Virus record (IMG/VR): IMGVR_UViG_3300036791_001712
Span: 1 to 48,920 of that record
Source: a virus
Direction: 5' to 3' (one strand)
Length of the DNA: 48,920 nucleotides
Part shown: positions 3,511 to 24,782 of the stretch, piece by piece
How positions within the stretch are numbered: the stretch's first letter is position 1
How the letters are laid out: each line of letters opens with the position of its first letter
Translations under genes and position numbers: made by a program
The notes under the pieces: generated by a model
Databases searched by the model: none
What the model saw: only the letters and a program-made list of their open reading frames with translations
Told to the model about the DNA's origin: nothing

Positions 3511-3845
3511 TGACAACACGCAGCGACAAAGTTACCCGCTCCCAAATTTCCGCCGTCATGGCCGAACTCGGTCGCCGCAATGCCGGAGGCCGAAAGACGC
3601 TCACCCGCGCCGGACACTTTCAACGCATCCAAGCAGCCCGCGCCAGCGTCGCCGCCCGCGCCGCCCGAACGGGACGCCCGGATCCCCGGACATCCCCCGC
3701 ACCCCGCCGCGCCCCCGGAACCAGGGGGCTGGGGCTGGGGCTGGGGCAAGCCCAATCCAGCAACAAGCCGCTGACCGGGGGAAAGGGAAAAGCAACGGGC
3801 AAGCCCAATCCAACAACAGCACATCACCGGGACAACGGAAAATAG
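3510..3845 (+). CDS. Small basic protein with GGR motif and low-complexity tail
   Basis: This is the first rightward gene, 111 aa. The N-terminal half (SAVMAELGRRNAGGRKTLTR, then FQRIQAARASVAAR) follows a pattern seen in many small bacterial and phage proteins: helix, G-[RK]-x-GGR, helix. The second half is rich in Pro, Gly, Arg and Lys and looks disordered. The ATG at 3510 is preferred over an in-frame GTG at 3492 because the inverted repeat would otherwise be coding. No Shine-Dalgarno is visible. The next gene has a related motif, so the two may be diverged paralogues. The function is unknown; an early nucleic-acid-binding role is plausible from charge and position. Confidence 0.55.
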   Translation: MTTRSDKVTRSQISAVMAELGRRNAGGRKTLTRAGHFQRIQAARASVAARAARTGRPDPRTSPAPRRAPGTRGLGLGLGQAQSSNKPLTGGKGKATGKPNPTTAHHRDNGK

Positions 3846-13748: not shown

Positions 13749-13900
13749 GCGATGAAGAACTGGAAAATTCCCTTGAAACCACGATCGCCATCCCCATGAA
13801 TGATGTTATGTCACCCTATTTTGTCTCCGGGCTTGATCCCCATTTCAGGCTTCAACCCGGCGAAAACAAGCTTTATGAAAGAGAGGATCCGGTAAAATGA
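13745..13900 (+). CDS. Small acidic hypothetical protein (51 aa)
   Basis: An acidic short protein (MSDEELENSLETTIAIPMND ... YEREDPVK). Both ends overlap neighbours by 4 nt (ATGA), indicating coupling into the glycosyltransferase gene. The function is unknown. Confidence 0.6.
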   Translation: MSDEELENSLETTIAIPMNDVMSPYFVSGLDPHFRLQPGENKLYEREDPVK

Positions 13901-16539
13901 TTGTTGTCTTCCCATATAGCACCCGTGACGAGGATCTGGCGCTGCGGAACCTCCAATGGTGGAATGAACTGGGCGGCTGCAAAGGCCATCAGTGCCTCCT
14001 GATGCACGATAAACGATGCGCCCCGGACTTGGTCAGCTCCATTGGGCAGGAAGCTTTCAAAGCCTTCGACAATGTCGAAATGGTGCCAGCCGGGGCGGCA
14101 ATAGACGGCTGGCCAGAGGGAGCCAATTACTTTTTCCGCCTTGCAGCGGCTACGCTTCAGAGCCGCCCCCAATGGCGCTATTTCTTCTGGATGGAGCCGG
14201 ACGCTATTCCGCTCCAAAAGGGCTGGCTCGACACGCTGGAAGCCGAATACAAGCGGGCGGGGAAGCCTTTCATGGGTGATCGGGTGGAAGTTGAGAAGAT
14301 CCCCCTCCATATGTCAGGAGTGGGATTTTACCCCAATCCGCTCCACCTCTATGCGGGAGAAGCGTATCGCGCGCATGAGACTGCTTTTGACATGGCGGGC
14401 AAAGATCAAATTGTCCCCCGGGCACATTTCACCAAACTGATCGAGCACGCGTGGCAGCACAAAACCTTTACCGACCCTCACGAACTTCAAACCCAAATGA
14501 GACCAGAGTGCATTCTATTCCATTCAAGTAAAGACGGTAGTCTGATAGATTTATTACGCCATGACAAAGCAAACCAGATTCAAAAACGGACAGATGCTCT
14601 TCACTCAGATATTCACGAAAAAAGAGGCTTTGTTGCGGCGACGAACCAAAATGAAACGTTACAAGAAAGCGTACAACCTCAAACATCCAGATGGGGCGAA
14701 GGAAATCTATCGCCGATACCACAAACGACATCGGGTATTGAAGTCTCAGAAGTATCGAGCAGGGGACAAGATTCGCGACGCGGTGCGGAGCGGCAGGATC
14801 GAGAAGCCCAACAAGTGCCAGCGGTGCAACCAACAAGTGCCAGCGGTGATGCTGCACGGTCACCATCAAAACTACAACGACCCCCTGATGGTGGAATGGA
14901 TATGCGCGTGGTGCCACCGGAAGGCCCACGGAGTATAACCTGCGACATTTTCATAAAAACCTACACCAAGGATGCCGAGTGGCTGGATTATTGCCGACGC
15001 TCGATAGCGCGCTTTGGCACCGGGTTCCACAACGTGGTCATAATCGGCGACCAAAAGGAGTACTGTGACGATGGTTATCTTTCCCAGCAGATCTACAAGG
15101 TTTACGCCGATACGTTCACTGACGCTGATTGGATTTTGCACATGGACAGTGACGCCATGTTCACCCGACCGGTCAGCCCGGAGACTTATCTGATCGATGG
15201 TAAACCCCGCTGGATGATTACGCCTAACAGCGATCTTGAGAAAAGTCTTCCCTGGTTTGAAGTCATACGCGAGTTCATGGGCGAGAACGCCGAATTTGAG
15301 TTCATGCGCCGGTTTCCTTTCCTCTTTCCCCGCTGGTTCTACCCGCAGTTTAGGCAATTTATCCTGACCCAGCACGGGGTCGATGCCGAGACCTACATCA
15401 AAAACAGGCCAAATCGCTCTTTCAGCGAGTTCAACTGCATGGGCGCATTTGCCTACAAATTTTTGCGGGACAAGTTCCACTGGATTGACACCAGCAAAGA
15501 TCCCTGGCCAGAACTAACCGTGGATCAACTCTGGAGCCACGGCGGGTTGACTGAAGAGAATAAGGCGCGCAGGGAAAAGATTTTGAGCGGCGAACCTGCT
15601 CAAAAACTTCCTGAGCCAGAATACGATATTCCTAAGCTTTTTACGAAAGGCGTGTTTCTTTCTAATTTAGGCGAGGTAAAAACAATTCCTGAAGGCATCA
15701 AAGTCTTGCCCGGGGATATCTGGGTTTTGGAAGGAGGCGATCAGATAAGCCAATGGGTGGAGCAGGAAGGTCGCCTTGACCATGACCAAAACTTCCTCCC
15801 CTTTGTGCTAAAACATATCAATGAGGGGGACACCGTAATAGATATTGGCGCACACATAGGCGATCACGCCATTGCTTACGCGCACAAGGCCGGGGAAGTC
15901 CACGCCTTTGAACCTAACCCAATCTCTTTCGAGTGTCTGAGTCACAACCTTTCTCCTGACATCGCGCCCCGGGCAGCGGGTGTTTTTTTACATCAGGTGG
16001 CGCTGGGCGACAAAGTTGGATCAGCCCCGCTTTCAGGCAATAACGGCCAGCCCGGGGGAGGTTATATAGGAGAACATATGAAGGTGGCCGATGTGGAAAT
16101 GCGCCCCCTGGATGGTTACAAGATCAAAGCCGACTTCATCAAGATCGATGTTGAAGGTTATGAGCTAAATGTGCTCCGGGGCGGGGAAGCCACGATCGAA
16201 GAAAACCGTCCTATCATGGTGATTGAGATAAATTTCGGCGCGCTTCGCCGTCAGGGAAATGTCCCCGGGGATATTTTTTCATGGTTAAAAGCGCATGATT
16301 ATTCCTACACCATCATCCAGGAGAACTGTGGTAGAACCAGCCCGATGTATGATGTCCTGTGTATGCCCGTCGCGGCCCCCCTCCTGGATAAAAATGATCT
16401 TTTAACTAATGAGCAGGTTCAAAATTACATCAAACGAATCGGGAAATTCTCCGGTTTCAGTTTGCAAAACAAAGCCTACGTCATGCGAGCTTTGGTGTTT
16501 GCCGGACTTAAAGAGAAAAGGAAAAAGAAAAAGAAATGA
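13897..16539 (+). CDS. Glycosyltransferase - glycosyltransferase - FkbM methyltransferase fusion
   Basis: The frame is 880 codons. Residues 1-220 look like a glycosyltransferase (RYFFWMEPDAIPLQKGWL; EPD may replace DxD). Residues about 221-347 are low-complexity and are the out-of-frame reading of an HNH gene (14561-14938). Residues about 348-590 form a second glycosyltransferase with a DxD motif (HMDSDAMF, about 415-420). Residues about 640-830 are an FkbM-type SAM methyltransferase (TVIDIGAHIGDHA; EPN; FIKIDVEGYELNVLRGG). The tail is poly-Lys. The likely role is sugar transfer and O-methylation of host surface glycan, virion or DNA; the target is unknown. Originally separate genes may have been fused when the HNH gene arrived. 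Confidence 0.8.
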   Translation: MIVVFPYSTRDEDLALRNLQWWNELGGCKGHQCLLMHDKRCAPDLVSSIGQEAFKAFDNVEMVPAGAAIDGWPEGANYFFRLAAATLQSRPQWRYFFWMEPDAIPLQKGWLDTLEAEYKRAGKPFMGDRVEVEKIPLHMSGVGFYPNPLHLYAGEAYRAHETAFDMAGKDQIVPRAHFTKLIEHAWQHKTFTDPHELQTQMRPECILFHSSKDGSLIDLLRHDKANQIQKRTDALHSDIHEKRGFVAATNQNETLQESVQPQTSRWGEGNLSPIPQTTSGIEVSEVSSRGQDSRRGAERQDREAQQVPAVQPTSASGDAARSPSKLQRPPDGGMDMRVVPPEGPRSITCDIFIKTYTKDAEWLDYCRRSIARFGTGFHNVVIIGDQKEYCDDGYLSQQIYKVYADTFTDADWILHMDSDAMFTRPVSPETYLIDGKPRWMITPNSDLEKSLPWFEVIREFMGENAEFEFMRRFPFLFPRWFYPQFRQFILTQHGVDAETYIKNRPNRSFSEFNCMGAFAYKFLRDKFHWIDTSKDPWPELTVDQLWSHGGLTEENKARREKILSGEPAQKLPEPEYDIPKLFTKGVFLSNLGEVKTIPEGIKVLPGDIWVLEGGDQISQWVEQEGRLDHDQNFLPFVLKHINEGDTVIDIGAHIGDHAIAYAHKAGEVHAFEPNPISFECLSHNLSPDIAPRAAGVFLHQVALGDKVGSAPLSGNNGQPGGGYIGEHMKVADVEMRPLDGYKIKADFIKIDVEGYELNVLRGGEATIEENRPIMVIEINFGALRRQGNVPGDIFSWLKAHDYSYTIIQENCGRTSPMYDVLCMPVAAPLLDKNDLLTNEQVQNYIKRIGKFSGFSLQNKAYVMRALVFAGLKEKRKKKKK
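14561..14938 (+). CDS. HNH homing endonuclease overlapping the glycosyltransferase fusion
   Basis: 125 aa in a frame different from the surrounding 880-codon gene. The C-terminal half is a clear HNH nuclease with structural zinc: C86-x2-C89, the H99/H101/H102 core with N104/N106, then C115-x2-C118-H119. The N-terminal half is very basic (EALLRRRTKMKRYKKAYN) and probably binds DNA. The stop TAA lies exactly where the second glycosyltransferase domain begins. There is no obvious ribosome site at 14561; M31 (14651) is another possible start. It is likely a free-standing mobile endonuclease that inserted between two glycosyltransferase genes or domains. Confidence 0.8.
   Translation: MTKQTRFKNGQMLFTQIFTKKEALLRRRTKMKRYKKAYNLKHPDGAKEIYRRYHKRHRVLKSQKYRAGDKIRDAVRSGRIEKPNKCQRCNQQVPAVMLHGHHQNYNDPLMVEWICAWCHRKAHGV
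14808..14848 (+). repeat. 22-nt tandem duplication inside the HNH gene
   Basis: CCAACAAGTGCCAGCGGTG occurs at 14808-14826 and again at 14830-14848. The unit length of 22 is not a multiple of three, so the same bases are read as NKCQRC in the first copy and NQQVPAV in the second. Confidence 0.9.
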
Positions 16540-17987: not shown

Positions 17988-20900
17988 TTACCTACGGCCA
18001 GTTCCTCTGGTATGAACCGATGGAACCACCCCTCTTCGCCTGACACCGAGCTGCTGTGGCCGGGGTAAGACATCAGGAACCTGCTCGCGCAGCCCGGGGA
18101 TACCCATCATTACATGTTCCTTGATCCCAGTCGGGTAACGCTTTTCCGCCGGATCAGTCATCTGAGCTATCTGTTGAACGAACATCGGGATCAAGATTGA
18201 GCGAACATGTTCGCCCAAGACATCGGCACCCTGCCGAGGGTCAAGTGATTTGGCCATCTCAACCGATTCACGGACAAAAGGTGATGAAGATAACGCAGCC
18301 CACAGGGTTTCATACAGCCCGTACCAATATCCGGCAGTCTCCTCGTCGCGCTTGCGCAGATAAGAATCTCCTATCTGCCGGATGGTGGATCCAAATTGGG
18401 GCAGGATAAGGAAAGGATTATCCTGGAGCCAGGCCGGGATAACTTTGCCGCCAAGAACAGGGACACCTTCCGGGATTCTTGTTTGGCCAAAGCCGAGTTC
18501 ACCTGGTTGCCTCTTTTGTCCTGGACGGTAAAATCCGCCAAAATATTGTGGAGCGAAAACTCCCAATGCGGTTAGAGCCAGTCCAAGGGAACCGGTTTTC
18601 AAATTGCGCATGATTAAATCGGCTTCCTTGGGTGATAAATTTTCAATCCCTTTGCCCAAGATCGTTCCCACAATTCTTCCGCCACCTGAAAACCCCCCAA
18701 AGACCCCTTCAAAGGTGCGGGCGAGGATATTGGTTGGAACTTGAACCACAGGCAATTCGGCTTTAATCCCAAAAGCAGCCGCTTTTCCATAGAATCCGCC
18801 CTGACGTTCCAGTACACCCAGAAGCATACGGTAACCTTTGCTGGCCACGTTTTTATTTTGAAAACGCCAAAAAACCGAATCTTCATAAGCCAGTTCTCCA
18901 TTGACCACATGAACCAGTGGATCAGTGATATCAACTCCATGCCGAGCAGCAAACTCGGTGCGATGGATCAGCGAGCGAACCCATTCGTTGCGCGCCAGAG
19001 GCGATTTAAGCGCGCTATGCAAAAACCCAACATAATTTTGCAGTTCAGGTGGCAATGCTTGAAAGGATCCGAAAACACTTTCAAAATCCGGTTTCTGACC
19101 CCTGATATTCTTGCCAAAATCCGAGAGTAAATTTTTCCACATCTCGCCAAAAGCTGCCGCTTCGGCACGAGTATTAAACCCGTAACCTTCCCGGGGCGCG
19201 CGTTTGGCTACTTCACTAACAATGGGGAGATGTTTGAGCACGGTTCCAGCCGCTTCCCGGGCAGGGAGTATGATGGTTCCTTCAACTGAAGCAGAGAACA
19301 GTTTGGCCAGAGAATGAAAACCGGAAATAACACTCGCTCTGCGCCATTTAATGAGAAAGTCCGGGGCTTTCTGCCACCAAGTGAGTTTATCTCGGCGCGC
19401 TTTTTCAAGTGAATCAATCCAATCGTCTTCAGCTTTTTTCGCCTCAGCTGCTTTCGCCAAGTGTTCCTTGCTAAGGGGCATGAGTGTTTCGAGTTTGCCT
19501 TTACCGGTTCGATAAGCTTCCGCCTGTTTGCCCAGATTTTCCCAGAATTGTGTCGCTTTGGGACTGTGCAGATAAGCTTGAAGCGCGTCCTGTTTTTCCT
19601 TAATTTTATCATATTCCGCTACCACATCGCCATGTTCAAGGAAGCTTAAGGGACGACCTTTCTCGATCGCCTGCTTGTCGTCGAGCATCTTTTCAAGAGT
19701 AAACTGACTCGGGGAGCTAAGCGGCACTGCCTGCTTAGCCTTCTGGCCACCTTCCCGGGCTTTGCGGATATCCTGTAATTTGTCCAGGGTCTCAGAATAC
19801 TTGACATCGTTTTCAGCAATTCTGGCCTGATCCCCGCGCTGGAAAGCGTCCCTTTGGTTAGCGGCAATCCTATCTTTTTGAGTGTTAAGCTCGTTTTCCC
19901 GTTTGTTTAAGGCCGTGTGCTCTTCAGCGGTTAAAGGCCGGGGTTTGTCTTTTTGTGTCTCAATCAGGGTATTAGCGCGCCCTAGTTCAGCTGTCCTCTC
20001 CGGTGGCAGCGGAGCGACCGGCCCAGTTGGAACAGGAGGTGGTTGCGGGCCGGTTGGGCGGCGAGGTTGCTGTGAAAGGGGATAGAGCGAAGTCGCTGCC
20101 GGAGCAGCACCTGTCTCCGGCTTTGTTACCGGCCCAGCTTGTGCCTGGCGCTGGCGTTCGGCAGCTGCCTCTTGGGCTGTTTTTACTCCAGCGGCGGGCT
20201 GGGGAGCGGCTGCTCCTGGAGGTCGCTCTGCCCCCGGGGCTGCTTCTGGTGCGCCCCTTTTCTCGGCAGCGATTTGCCCGGCAAGGATGTCTCCGATTGC
20301 CCCAGCAGCCCGATCTGGCGCTTCAGCTCGTCCAGGGCCGGTTGGTCTTTGTTGCGAAAGTCGTTCATCCGCCGGTGCATCGACTCCAGGTACACCTTCA
20401 CCAGCCCTTTTAGCTGGGCCGGGTTCCGGGCCAAGGGCTGAAGCAGACTTGAAACTTGTGGCAGCATTTTTTGTATTATAGTCTTTGAGTCGGTCATTGA
20501 TTTGGTTGATTGCGTCCCAGTGTTTTTCATAAATGTTTCCTAAGGCTTTTTCATATAATCTAGTAGGAACACCGCTTGCGACCATCCGGCTATGATTAGC
20601 GAACAGCTCTGAAGTAAATCCCGCCCCTTCTTCGCGCGCATTAGCATGAGTTAACTCATGGATGAAAGCATGTAAAGTCGCAGCTGCGGCGGCTTCCGGG
20701 CTTGTTAAAGCAGAACTGGGGAGAGCACCCGGGTTAAACCAGACAGCCTTGAACGGGTTCATCATGTTCAGGCCAGCATAATCTTTATCGAAAGAAATCC
20801 CGCCGAACCATCCGCCCGGATCCGTTCGTTTGTAGTCTTGGTAGTCGGGGATCTTTCCAAACTCCCGCATGAAACCGGTCAGGGCATTGCCCAGCTTAGC

Positions 20901-23900
20901 CAGTAACTCCGGTGCGCCTTTAATATCAGTGTATTTAACATTGGTATTGTTATGCAGCCAGGGCTTGGTCGGATCCATCTGGGTGACATCAAGCTTGGTT
21001 TTTTCGTAATCTACTTCCTTTTCCGCTTTAAAAGTTGATGTCTCGGGTTTAACATATTTCTCCCTGGAAACTACCTCTGTCCTTCCACCTTTATAGTGTA
21101 AGACTACATCCCTGTCCCCCATCTCTACTCTAGTGATTTTTTCGGGGGTATAAGGTTTAACTTCCTGTTTAGCAGAAATGGATTCACGGACTTTGGCCAG
21201 ATCGGCAGGAGAGAGATCCTTAGTCGGATCCACCGATGGCAGCTGTTGGAGATTTTTGAAGGTGTCCTGTGCTTTTACAAGCTGTTGCTCGGTCGCTTTC
21301 CGTCGCAGGAACGATTTCATCGCTTCCACATCGGCCTTTCTTTTGCCCCTGAAATCCTCTCTCTGCATATTTATTGGATAATCAGGGTGCTTAGGTTTTA
21401 CCTTTGAACGAACATCGAGAACAACATCATGGGGAAACTTGGGGTCGCCATAGCCGCCATATATTTGGCCTGCATGGATAGTGAATTGATAGAGGCCAGA
21501 AGACAGAACATGGGTTCTCGGATAATCCGCGTTCTTGGGATCGACATACATCTCAACATCACCCCATTTGAAGTGAAAGGTGTTGTCTTTGTGCCAATCT
21601 TTCTGGGTTGCACCCAGATGATCCATAAACTGTCCGTTCACACGGATCCTGACCGGGCCAATCAATGGGCTTCGATCATAGACACTGTCGGAAAAAAATG
21701 GGATAGATCCAGGATAAGACAAAAAGTTGATCTGCTGCTCCTCGCCATCGGGGTCAATGTAACTTTTGGGGATTTTAATTTTAACCGTTGTCCCATTGGG
21801 TTCCGAAGTGCGAGTGCCTATTATCTTGAAACGTCCAGTGGCAATGTTCTGTCCTGTGTCATCAATAACAGATTTGATTCCATTTTTAACGGTTTCCACA
21901 TGAACTGTCTCTGAACCCTCAAAAAAGCTCATTTTGGCCAGCCCGTTACCGCCGGAACTGTCTTCAGGACGAGTTGGCTTGAAAGTTCCACCTATCTTGA
22001 AGAGGGCTTCTTTAATGACATTACGATCCATGCCTGTCCCGCTGTCTTTAACCGTGATTTCCCGTGTCTTTGGATCATTTGTAATGTCGATAATTCCGGG
22101 ATGTTCATTAGTCACCCCGGCAGCCTTGTAAGCGTCAAAGGCATTTTGAACCAGCTCTTTTATAGCCACTTGCTGGATTGGCTTTTCATACATGTCCTTG
22201 CTATGAAGCGCCGCCATTTGAGGCTTATCTACCCCCATCTCAATTTCTTCCTCACCGATTCCATCCTCGTCCATTGTGGATGACACTGTTTTAGCGCCCT
22301 CTTCGGACATGTTTTCAAGTTCCCGGTCAAGCACCTCGGGTGGTTTCTCTGTCCCCGGGGCAAAAGGAGCAGCTGCCTGAGTGGCTTCCCTGCGCCTGAA
22401 ACCAAAGAGACGGGATGGAGCTTGCTCGGCTTCGCCTGCCATAGGTTGTTGGTTTATTCGCGTTTCGTTTTCGGCCAAACCCGGCGTAATCGCGCTTTGT
22501 CGTTCACCTGTGTCGGCGTTTACGCGCTCAAAACGTGTTCCCTGTCCGACAACTTGCTCTTGGTGCGCGTTAAACGCTTTGCGAGCAGCGGCTCGCTCTG
22601 GCGTATGCGGCGCGGTAGCGAAGTAGGCGTCCTGTAATTCGCCAGCTTTTCGCCACCACCCCTCGGCTTCCGGCGTTTGGTAAATGTAAACAGGAGCCTT
22701 TGGCGCTCTTTCAGGCGTCAGATAAGAGGGTTCTTCCATCGCTTGGCCGCGCGCTTCCATCCCCCAAAGTTTTCTGGTAGGTGAACGCAACCGCGAATCA
22801 AGCATGTCAGCCAGGTGCCCGGGGTCATTTACGTCAAACCCTTTTGCTCGCAGTCCCATGACAATCCTATCGTCATCGGGAGCGTCTTTCCGGAAGAGAT
22901 CACCATAGTTGAGTTTCTCGCCGCTCACCGCTTTGGCAAACTTACCTTGCGTGAACTTGGAGGATTTTTGGAACGCTTCCCCTAGATCCTTAAAGTGAGG
23001 TGAGTCAGGATTGATTCCGCCAAGCTCTTTAATGGCAGGAAGCAACTCTTGCCCACCGCGTTCCTGGTACTCCTGCGCTCCAGCGGTCAGCTCCGCTTCA
23101 TGTTCAGCCCTGAGCCGCGCTTCCTCGGCGCGGATTCTCCGGTTCAGTTCGACTGGAGCCAGTTGTCCCCGCCGGTTGTAATCAGCGGCCTGTGCGTGCA
23201 ACCGTTCAAGCTCGGTGGCGATGTCCGGTGCCCTTACTTCTTCAGCGGTTTTTTCTGCTACTGTTTCTCCCGCTTCAGCTGCTAGTTTCTTAAAGAAGTC
23301 ATTATCCAGATTGCTTTTGGCTTGCTGGGCAGCTTCAAGATCGCCCCGGATAGTGACAGGTTCGACACTCTTGGTGCGCCGATCAAAAATGCCGTAAGCG
23401 CCACGACTGCCCTGGATAAAATACGGGCTTGGCGGTCTCTCTACCGCCGGTTCATATGCTCGCTCCGGTGGCGCGCCAGCCACGGATGGGCGGGTGGAAA
23501 CGGGTTCTTGTGGTACTTCCCTCCCTGGCTCTCTTCTTTGCGTTTCTCTGAGAGCATAATCGCGATCGCCTGGCTGCGGGACTTCACCTTGGGGCCGTGC
23601 TTCGACCCCGAGTGGAGTTTCCCTTCCTTGAATTTGTGTAGTACTTGGCTCGACGGCATATGGTTTTACTCCTGGTATTTCTCTTGTTGCGGTTGGTGCT
23701 TCTATTGAAACTGGTGCTGCAAGGGGCGGCGCGGGGATCTCTGTCCCGGCGTGCCTGCTTTTTATCCATTCCTCATAATTTCTTGCCGCTCCTGGCGCAC
23801 CTGGAACTCCACCTGGCGCTCCACCTGGAGGTGGCACACCTGGTGGCGCAGCACCTGGAGCAGCACCTCCGGGCTTAGCAGCGGGTAATTTGGCAGCAGC

Positions 23901-24782
23901 GGCCTCTGGATGAGGATAAAACATCCACGGCTCATTAAAGAGTGCGCCGGTAGCGGCAGCCGCAGCGAGTTGATTCCAGCTAAAATTACCCGATTGCAAC
24001 TGATCTTTGATGTTGTAAGCCGAGTTAAGAAGTCCCATCTGGGCAACATTGAGCAGGTTGAATACTTCTTGCTGTTTCTCCGGGGTAAGCGCCTTTGCTC
24101 CTTGTCGTGCCAGTGTCACCACAGCTTGCCTGCCCTCGCTCGTTGCCAGAGTGCGCCCTGCACGAAGGACGTTCACGGCGTTGGGTTTTCCGAAAGCAGC
24201 TGCGCTTCCCACCATTGTGGCAATAGGATGTTCAGTTGCCTGCATCGCTTCGACTTGCGGAGAAAAAATCCCCTGGGGCGATATTTGCTGGGCCAGGGCG
24301 CTTTGAGCTTTGGAAACGCCGTAGGCGGCAGCCCCTCCAGAGACCAGACCGCCGATTAAACTGCCCAGTGGAATCGCAGCCGGGGCAAGCGGGCCAGTCA
24401 TCGCACCAATCGCCGCTCCAGCTTCAGCACCAAATGGAAAAGCACCCATGAACGCCGCGGTCGGAGCAACACTCCTGGCCGCGCCACCGGCAAAAGCAGC
24501 CAGGGTACTAGGATCTCTCCCTGGATATCTGTTAGCAGCGGTAATCTGGGCGGCAGCGTTGCGCATCGCCCGATCGGTCTGAGGCGTCAGTGAACCTGGT
24601 TCTCCGCCACCGGATCCGCTTACAGCATCAATAAAATCCTGATCCCGGTCAGGGGGCTTTGCATATACTGTTCCCGTGCCCGGGGGCGGAGCAGCGCGTC
24701 CGTCAGGAGTCAGGTCAGGATCTAATGATGTCCTGGACTGGCCATTGACAGCATCAATAAAATCCTGGTCTCGATCGGGCAT
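17988..24782 (-). CDS. Giant polyvalent virion protein with GHKL ATPase and HELTH metallopeptidase motifs
   Basis: 2264 aa, the largest gene. Order: duplicated DRDQDFIDAVxG motif (residues 3-14 and 45-56); Ala/Gly-rich hydrophobic region (about 110-155); Pro-rich linkers; GHKL/Hsp90-type ATPase near 870-960 (KELVQNAFDAYKAAG, DSGTGMD, GGNGLAKM); zinc-peptidase motif IHELTHANAREEGAGF near 1371 with a later Glu; coiled coils (1560-1800); and a C-terminal region with one hydrophobic stretch (TGSLGLALTALGVF, about 2060). This is the architecture of large polyvalent proteins thought to be packaged and injected with phage DNA, where they act against host defences or modify host targets. It lies in the internal virion gene cluster. 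The activities are inferred from motifs only. Confidence 0.75.
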   Translation of the reverse strand: MPDRDQDFIDAVNGQSRTSLDPDLTPDGRAAPPPGTGTVYAKPPDRDQDFIDAVSGSGGGEPGSLTPQTDRAMRNAAAQITAANRYPGRDPSTLAAFAGGAARSVAPTAAFMGAFPFGAEAGAAIGAMTGPLAPAAIPLGSLIGGLVSGGAAAYGVSKAQSALAQQISPQGIFSPQVEAMQATEHPIATMVGSAAAFGKPNAVNVLRAGRTLATSEGRQAVVTLARQGAKALTPEKQQEVFNLLNVAQMGLLNSAYNIKDQLQSGNFSWNQLAAAAATGALFNEPWMFYPHPEAAAAKLPAAKPGGAAPGAAPPGVPPPGGAPGGVPGAPGAARNYEEWIKSRHAGTEIPAPPLAAPVSIEAPTATREIPGVKPYAVEPSTTQIQGRETPLGVEARPQGEVPQPGDRDYALRETQRREPGREVPQEPVSTRPSVAGAPPERAYEPAVERPPSPYFIQGSRGAYGIFDRRTKSVEPVTIRGDLEAAQQAKSNLDNDFFKKLAAEAGETVAEKTAEEVRAPDIATELERLHAQAADYNRRGQLAPVELNRRIRAEEARLRAEHEAELTAGAQEYQERGGQELLPAIKELGGINPDSPHFKDLGEAFQKSSKFTQGKFAKAVSGEKLNYGDLFRKDAPDDDRIVMGLRAKGFDVNDPGHLADMLDSRLRSPTRKLWGMEARGQAMEEPSYLTPERAPKAPVYIYQTPEAEGWWRKAGELQDAYFATAPHTPERAAARKAFNAHQEQVVGQGTRFERVNADTGERQSAITPGLAENETRINQQPMAGEAEQAPSRLFGFRRREATQAAAPFAPGTEKPPEVLDRELENMSEEGAKTVSSTMDEDGIGEEEIEMGVDKPQMAALHSKDMYEKPIQQVAIKELVQNAFDAYKAAGVTNEHPGIIDITNDPKTREITVKDSGTGMDRNVIKEALFKIGGTFKPTRPEDSSGGNGLAKMSFFEGSETVHVETVKNGIKSVIDDTGQNIATGRFKIIGTRTSEPNGTTVKIKIPKSYIDPDGEEQQINFLSYPGSIPFFSDSVYDRSPLIGPVRIRVNGQFMDHLGATQKDWHKDNTFHFKWGDVEMYVDPKNADYPRTHVLSSGLYQFTIHAGQIYGGYGDPKFPHDVVLDVRSKVKPKHPDYPINMQREDFRGKRKADVEAMKSFLRRKATEQQLVKAQDTFKNLQQLPSVDPTKDLSPADLAKVRESISAKQEVKPYTPEKITRVEMGDRDVVLHYKGGRTEVVSREKYVKPETSTFKAEKEVDYEKTKLDVTQMDPTKPWLHNNTNVKYTDIKGAPELLAKLGNALTGFMREFGKIPDYQDYKRTDPGGWFGGISFDKDYAGLNMMNPFKAVWFNPGALPSSALTSPEAAAAATLHAFIHELTHANAREEGAGFTSELFANHSRMVASGVPTRLYEKALGNIYEKHWDAINQINDRLKDYNTKNAATSFKSASALGPEPGPAKRAGEGVPGVDAPADERLSQQRPTGPGRAEAPDRAAGAIGDILAGQIAAEKRGAPEAAPGAERPPGAAAPQPAAGVKTAQEAAAERQRQAQAGPVTKPETGAAPAATSLYPLSQQPRRPTGPQPPPVPTGPVAPLPPERTAELGRANTLIETQKDKPRPLTAEEHTALNKRENELNTQKDRIAANQRDAFQRGDQARIAENDVKYSETLDKLQDIRKAREGGQKAKQAVPLSSPSQFTLEKMLDDKQAIEKGRPLSFLEHGDVVAEYDKIKEKQDALQAYLHSPKATQFWENLGKQAEAYRTGKGKLETLMPLSKEHLAKAAEAKKAEDDWIDSLEKARRDKLTWWQKAPDFLIKWRRASVISGFHSLAKLFSASVEGTIILPAREAAGTVLKHLPIVSEVAKRAPREGYGFNTRAEAAAFGEMWKNLLSDFGKNIRGQKPDFESVFGSFQALPPELQNYVGFLHSALKSPLARNEWVRSLIHRTEFAARHGVDITDPLVHVVNGELAYEDSVFWRFQNKNVASKGYRMLLGVLERQGGFYGKAAAFGIKAELPVVQVPTNILARTFEGVFGGFSGGGRIVGTILGKGIENLSPKEADLIMRNLKTGSLGLALTALGVFAPQYFGGFYRPGQKRQPGELGFGQTRIPEGVPVLGGKVIPAWLQDNPFLILPQFGSTIRQIGDSYLRKRDEETAGYWYGLYETLWAALSSSPFVRESVEMAKSLDPRQGADVLGEHVRSILIPMFVQQIAQMTDPAEKRYPTGIKEHVMMGIPGLREQVPDVLPRPQQLGVRRRGVVPSVHTRGTGRR

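Follow-up and report, generated by a model that had tools for sequence, protein, structure and literature searches.

A gene for an HNH homing-type endonuclease is, in our judgement, likely to be nested within the disordered linker of a phage enzyme that was already fused when the gene arrived, with the host reading frame kept. The window analysed here is the entire 48,920-nucleotide IMG/VR record IMGVR_UViG_3300036791_001712, a metagenomic assembly of an uncultured phage. As the original prediction had it, an 880-codon frame is open across the HNH frame, with both ORFs confirmed to lie on one strand but in different frames. The long frame had been described as a fusion of two glycosyltransferases; both glycosyltransferase domains (GT1 and GT2) are found, but the protein has three domains, the third being an FkbM methyltransferase:

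13897–16539, + strand: GT1-linker-GT2-linker-FkbM methyltransferase gene, an unbroken 880 codons (AlphaFold model, Foldseek).
13897–14559, + strand: GT1 domain, a GT-A-like glycosyltransferase ending in the conserved KDGSLIDLLR, with pLDDT mostly >84.
14560–14631, + strand: in the fusion frame, a helical tail at the GT1 C-terminus; in the HNH frame, scant independent homology to the HNH family.
14632–14937, + strand: Ser/Gln/Arg/Pro-rich interdomain linker (residues 246–347), the same DNA as the HNH read in the fusion frame.
14941–15588, + strand: GT2 domain, a GT-A-like glycosyltransferase with a weak DUF6492 match.
15595–15681, + strand: GT2-FkbM linker of low pLDDT, variable among relatives and without a nested gene.
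15841–16308, + strand: FkbM methyltransferase domain PF05050 (E=4e-23).

An AlphaFold model of the fusion, built from an alignment of relatives, gives three folded parts, GT1 (residues 1–221 plus its helical tail), GT2 (residues 349–564) and the methyltransferase, with disorder at residues 246–343, over most of which pLDDT is 24–32, and at 567–595. Foldseek searches with the model returned GT-A enzymes such as glycogenin, together with FkbM 2py6. The onset of the disordered linker at 14632 matches, to within a base, the TTG codon at 14633 picked out by start-site analysis, and the tail of GT1 is the better reading of the stretch 14560–14631. Long antisense ORFs also lie over the fusion gene on the − strand, at 13873–14310 (145 aa), 14468–14929 (153 aa) and 14872–15480 (202 aa); these are probably due to chance, because open stretches in one antisense frame are common in this genome (91 of 938 windows).

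The nested frame comprises the following features:

14561–14938, + strand: maximal HNH frame, ATG to TAA, 125 aa, in a frame different from that of the fusion.
14620–14635, + strand: AAAAGAGG, a Shine-Dalgarno-like motif (14620–14627) and TTG (14633–14635), the best-supported HNH start.
14633–14938, + strand: likely HNH endonuclease gene for a 101-residue protein, with the C-x2-C ... HH ... C-x2-C-H ... H core intact.
14936–14938, + strand: HNH stop codon TAA, with similarity to the nearest relative back at 14940.

Profile searches match the HNH frame to phrog_2340 (endonuclease, E=3.7e-19), the match starting at position 64 of 171 in the profile, and a second profile, made from nine homologs with the window left out, gives the frame 83.8 bits, while the Pfam HNH match (E=0.55) lies under the cut-off. 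The Cys/His core was predicted to be complete, and it is: the pattern CxxC, HH, W-[LI]-C, C-H, H is whole and the family-invariant residues are all retained (C86, C89, H101, H102, Y105, W113, C115, H119 and H123). Assignment to the phrog_2340-type HNH family is, on this sequence evidence, solid. The homologs from cultured phages occur either as free-standing genes or within a polymerase gene that is spliced; an exact-peptide search of IMG/VR confirmed no relatives of the window HNH, the ten-member HNH alignment proved too divergent to scan with, and a single-sequence structure prediction (pLDDT 63) was too poor for use.

At its N-terminus the homology begins at about residue 20–27 of the maximal frame with both the phrog_2340 and leave-out profiles, and the zinc knuckles that the homologs carry N-terminally, outside the catalytic core, were not found in the window HNH. 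A zinc-ribbon remnant at residues 1–20 of the HNH frame was considered and received no support from the leave-out profile. Start-site analysis found no Shine-Dalgarno motif ahead of the ATG at 14561, and the TTG at 14633 lies five bases past AAAAGAGG (−5.8 kcal/mol), making this TTG most likely the HNH start. At the other end, the HNH stop does fall where the second glycosyltransferase begins, again as predicted.

The openness of the fusion frame over the HNH is beyond chance. Although the statistics are somewhat flattering, the case having been singled out for being open, the fusion frame is open in only 1.2% of synonymous HNH shuffles that use the same codons and in 0 of 5000 drawn from phage codon usage; the equivalent relative frame is open in 0 of 938 windows of 126 codons from this genome, and in nine annotated HNH homologs it contains 10–39 stops. 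None of the 25 stop-prone HNH codon junctions uses T, compared with 12 of 64 other junctions (Fisher p=0.017) and with a T usage of 30% in this phage's other genes. Together, the shuffles, genome windows, homolog stops and T avoidance indicate that the frame is used or was filtered, rather than open by luck. Two proteins made from overlapping frames would be compatible with all of these observations. An HNH was found at this site in one genome only, and current selection on both frames is what we infer.

The two frames are further tied together by a repeat within the HNH core:

14808–14848, + strand: 22-nt tandem duplication, with 19-nt exact copies at 14808–14826 and 14830–14848.

The repeat keeps the HNH homology on its two sides in register, and the loop between CxxC and HH exceeds that of relatives by about 3 residues; without the repeat, the core is split between two frames. 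Removal of one copy stops the HNH frame at once and sends the fusion frame into the HNH C-terminus, where it stops at 14936. Loss of one copy therefore breaks both frames, which share a common fate here, a frameshift at this point breaking or restoring both. The duplication may have arisen either in a compound event swapping about 13 nt for 22, or by duplication after an earlier break.

Comparison with related phages bears on the order of events. The nearest relative, L002/G001, has a genome that is collinear with the window and about 80% identical to it. There the same three-domain fusion is encoded in a single 779-aa ORF that lacks an HNH and whose linker is 33 residues long. A third GT1-GT2-FkbM fusion, of 896 aa with a 42-residue linker, is found in L146/G002, while in G003 and G004 GT1 is fused directly to FkbM, again at KDGSLIDLLR. 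The empty site sought around 14560/14938 is thus present, for example in L002: the HNH is sporadic, missing at the homologous site in L002, L146, L144 and L143, of which the first three have a linker free of inserted elements and the last has a tRNA gene there. Neither HNH profile matches at the loci of the fused relatives nor HNH remnants in their linkers were found. The L002 linker was also considered as a leftover of an excised HNH, with no similarity seen, and a VQPxxAS likeness between the two linkers is attributed to chance, the stretch in the window belonging to the HNH core. In the GT1 tree the fused forms make up one group with moderate support (86/93), and in more distant phages GT1, GT2 and FkbM are separate ORFs, often with short overlaps. 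The simplest history would therefore run from separate genes to a fusion and then to entry of the HNH into the linker of one lineage; very probably the fusion came first and the HNH later.

Searches beyond these relatives found no GT1 or GT2 homologs in GenBank phages, even at E=1, and no GT2 in bacterial genomes; a scan of bacterial genomes for KDGSLIDLLR gave five stretches, only one with a weak partial GT1 match, and a neighbour-gene search recovered only the same nearest relative. The three enzymes also occur as separate overlapping genes, in tandem GT1-GT1 fusions and in other orders (L028, L066, L043, L085, L040 and others). The predicted GT1/GT2/FkbM cassettes of many uncultured phages are a shuffled, putative glycosylation module.

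In its main reading, the original prediction had a mobile endonuclease insert between two genes and fuse them by keeping both frames open. An HNH of mobile kind does sit mid-fusion with its DNA as linker, but its role in creating the fusion is contradicted by the closest relatives, which are already fused without it, and by the GT2-FkbM linker, which arose with no HNH at all. A version in which the HNH-less fusions are later deletions of the HNH can appeal to the separate, overlapping GT1 and GT2 genes of more distant phages, according to which fusion happened at some time; we consider it very unlikely, given three fused relatives at different clade depths with no linker element and a fourth with a tRNA gene, the lack of HNH remnants and profile matches noted above, and GT2-FkbM and GT1-FkbM junctions that were fused without an HNH. 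Since relatives have the fusion without the HNH, the HNH very probably did not create it. Removal of the insert at the RNA or protein level, as an intron or intein carrying the HNH, is scarcely credible: the closest annotated homologs do include an HNH located in the DNA polymerase gene of Staphylococcus phage K, which is spliced, but no Rfam intron or other Rfam family was detected at E up to 1, the insert is the HNH gene plus about 70 nt and so too short for a ribozyme core, and on inspection the fusion frame lacks intein-like ends.

It is also conceivable, though unlikely, that the HNH is dead or was never expressed and that its DNA is now linker only, held open as fusion coding sequence. 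The ATG at 14561 without a Shine-Dalgarno motif, the N-terminal truncation, the lengthening of a core loop by the 22-nt duplication and codon statistics that fall between coding and non-coding would all agree with this, but the HNH frame is open to its end with every invariant catalytic and zinc-binding residue kept, on which the fusion frame should exert no pressure, and a fair ribosome-binding site precedes TTG 14633. An assembly error or chimera, which would make the linker or the repeat an artefact and leave the frames separate in the real genome, is highly improbable. The sequence is a metagenomic contig, and the repeat occupies the only position at which losing a copy disrupts both frames; against this, the repeat puts the HNH homology in register, an artefact being unlikely to mend a split core, and the genome is otherwise collinear with its nearest relative. 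We favour entry of an HNH gene into the linker of an existing fusion.

Further indications of how the gene arrived come from the DNA upstream of it:

14380–14559, + strand: divergent flank, a candidate co-conversion (donor) tract, in which identity to L002 decays while the protein is conserved.

GT1 DNA identity between the window and this relative is 0.83–0.93 for 480 nt, then falls to 0.77, 0.68 and 0.52 in successive 60-nt blocks toward the insert, the last value at or below that among separate relatives in the same stretch (0.58–0.75). Over the last 17 GT1 codons, 12 of 14 identical residues use a different codon, compared with 31% elsewhere (p=5e-5), giving the highest codon-difference windows of the gene; the codons at the end of GT1 are AT-rich and atypical for this phage, with in-frame block values for codon use in the flank of −0.25 in the window and 0.00 in L002. 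In phage T4, flanking DNA is co-converted along with the endonuclease gene (PMC2988022). The divergence here fits donor DNA arriving with the HNH and supports homing, but conversion is not proven because the divergence is confined to the 5′ side and forms a gradient, not a sharp step.

We propose that a free-standing HNH homing-type endonuclease gene, with some donor flank, entered the linker of a GT1-GT2-FkbM fusion at the junction of the conserved GT1 end (KDGSLIDLLR) and the GT2 start. The host frame would have survived through an insert length and codon choice that left no stop in the fusion frame, helped by a disordered linker that may accept nearly any sequence, and selection on the fusion enzyme would afterwards have maintained the second frame open. 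The ribosome would translate the entire fusion, with the HNH DNA supplying about 100 linker residues, while a separate start of translation, for which TTG 14633 downstream of AAAAGAGG is the likeliest site, would produce the HNH protein; this would cut HNH-less alleles, and the gene would spread by recombination. Expression, cleavage and mobility of the HNH we infer from its sequence.

Parts of this arrangement are familiar from other systems. Aeromonas phage Aeh1 has the HNH gene mobE inserted in nrdA and missing there in related phages (PMC2988022), likewise an HNH homing endonuclease gene embedded in a phage enzyme gene, but nrdA is split into two proteins, whereas in the window the host frame continues through the HNH. 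Insertion of mobA at genes 39/60 of phage T4 (PMC2988022, PMC5009743) similarly places an endonuclease in coding sequence, with the difference that T4 has a split subunit and a 50-nt translational bypass in gene 60, neither of which the window needs. The free-standing T4 genes segC, segF, mobA and mobC overlap the upstream gene by 11–24 bp (PMC2988022); in both cases an endonuclease start lies within upstream coding sequence, but the T4 overlap covers the first few codons and that in the window the whole endonuclease gene. Rickettsia palindromic elements are mobile DNA lying in frame in protein genes and translated as tolerated residues (PMC2229807), comparable in that the insert is translated as extra residues of the host protein, yet they are non-autonomous and 105–146 bp long, whereas the window insert encodes an enzyme in another frame. 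The phrog_2340-type HNHs of Staphylococcus phage K, Bacillus phage Grass, Cronobacter phage GAP31 and others have the same core at about 30–40% identity and share the invariant Cys/His residues, but they are free-standing or in a spliced polymerase gene, have N-terminal zinc knuckles and contain 8–39 stops in alternative frames.

A parallel case is found at the homologous linker of a relative. Rfam (69 bits) and ARAGORN detect a complete tRNA-Met(CAT) gene, its CCA encoded, at positions 3606–3680 of L143/G003 (IMGVR_UViG_3300045119_000359); no other tRNA was found in this record. It lies inside the GT1-FkbM linker, in fusion coding sequence, with the fusion frame reading through it as linker peptide. 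The same linker thus appears to have housed two unrelated genes in two phages, which is suggestive, though two cases make no rule. It is possible, and we put it forward tentatively, that disordered linkers of fused phage enzymes are a nesting site in which the HNH and the tRNA were housed independently, the host frame being selected to stay open; the tRNA-bearing relative suggests that phages may in general tolerate nested genes in interdomain linkers.

To our knowledge, homing endonucleases that enter coding sequence either need a self-splicing shell or split the gene. If our reading is true, they could also invade it without intron, intein or gene splitting, a third outcome in which a selfish gene lies wholly within an enzyme gene in another frame, its DNA serving as linker, and which would provide a natural test case for dual-frame constraint. 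We found no report of such an arrangement in the open-access literature searched, though it may have been described before. Elsewhere in the window, a 2264-aa ORF (17988–24782, − strand) lies in a region of large proteins mostly without a PHROGs match, which is absent for eight of the other big ORFs there, indicating that this phage is distant from described phages.
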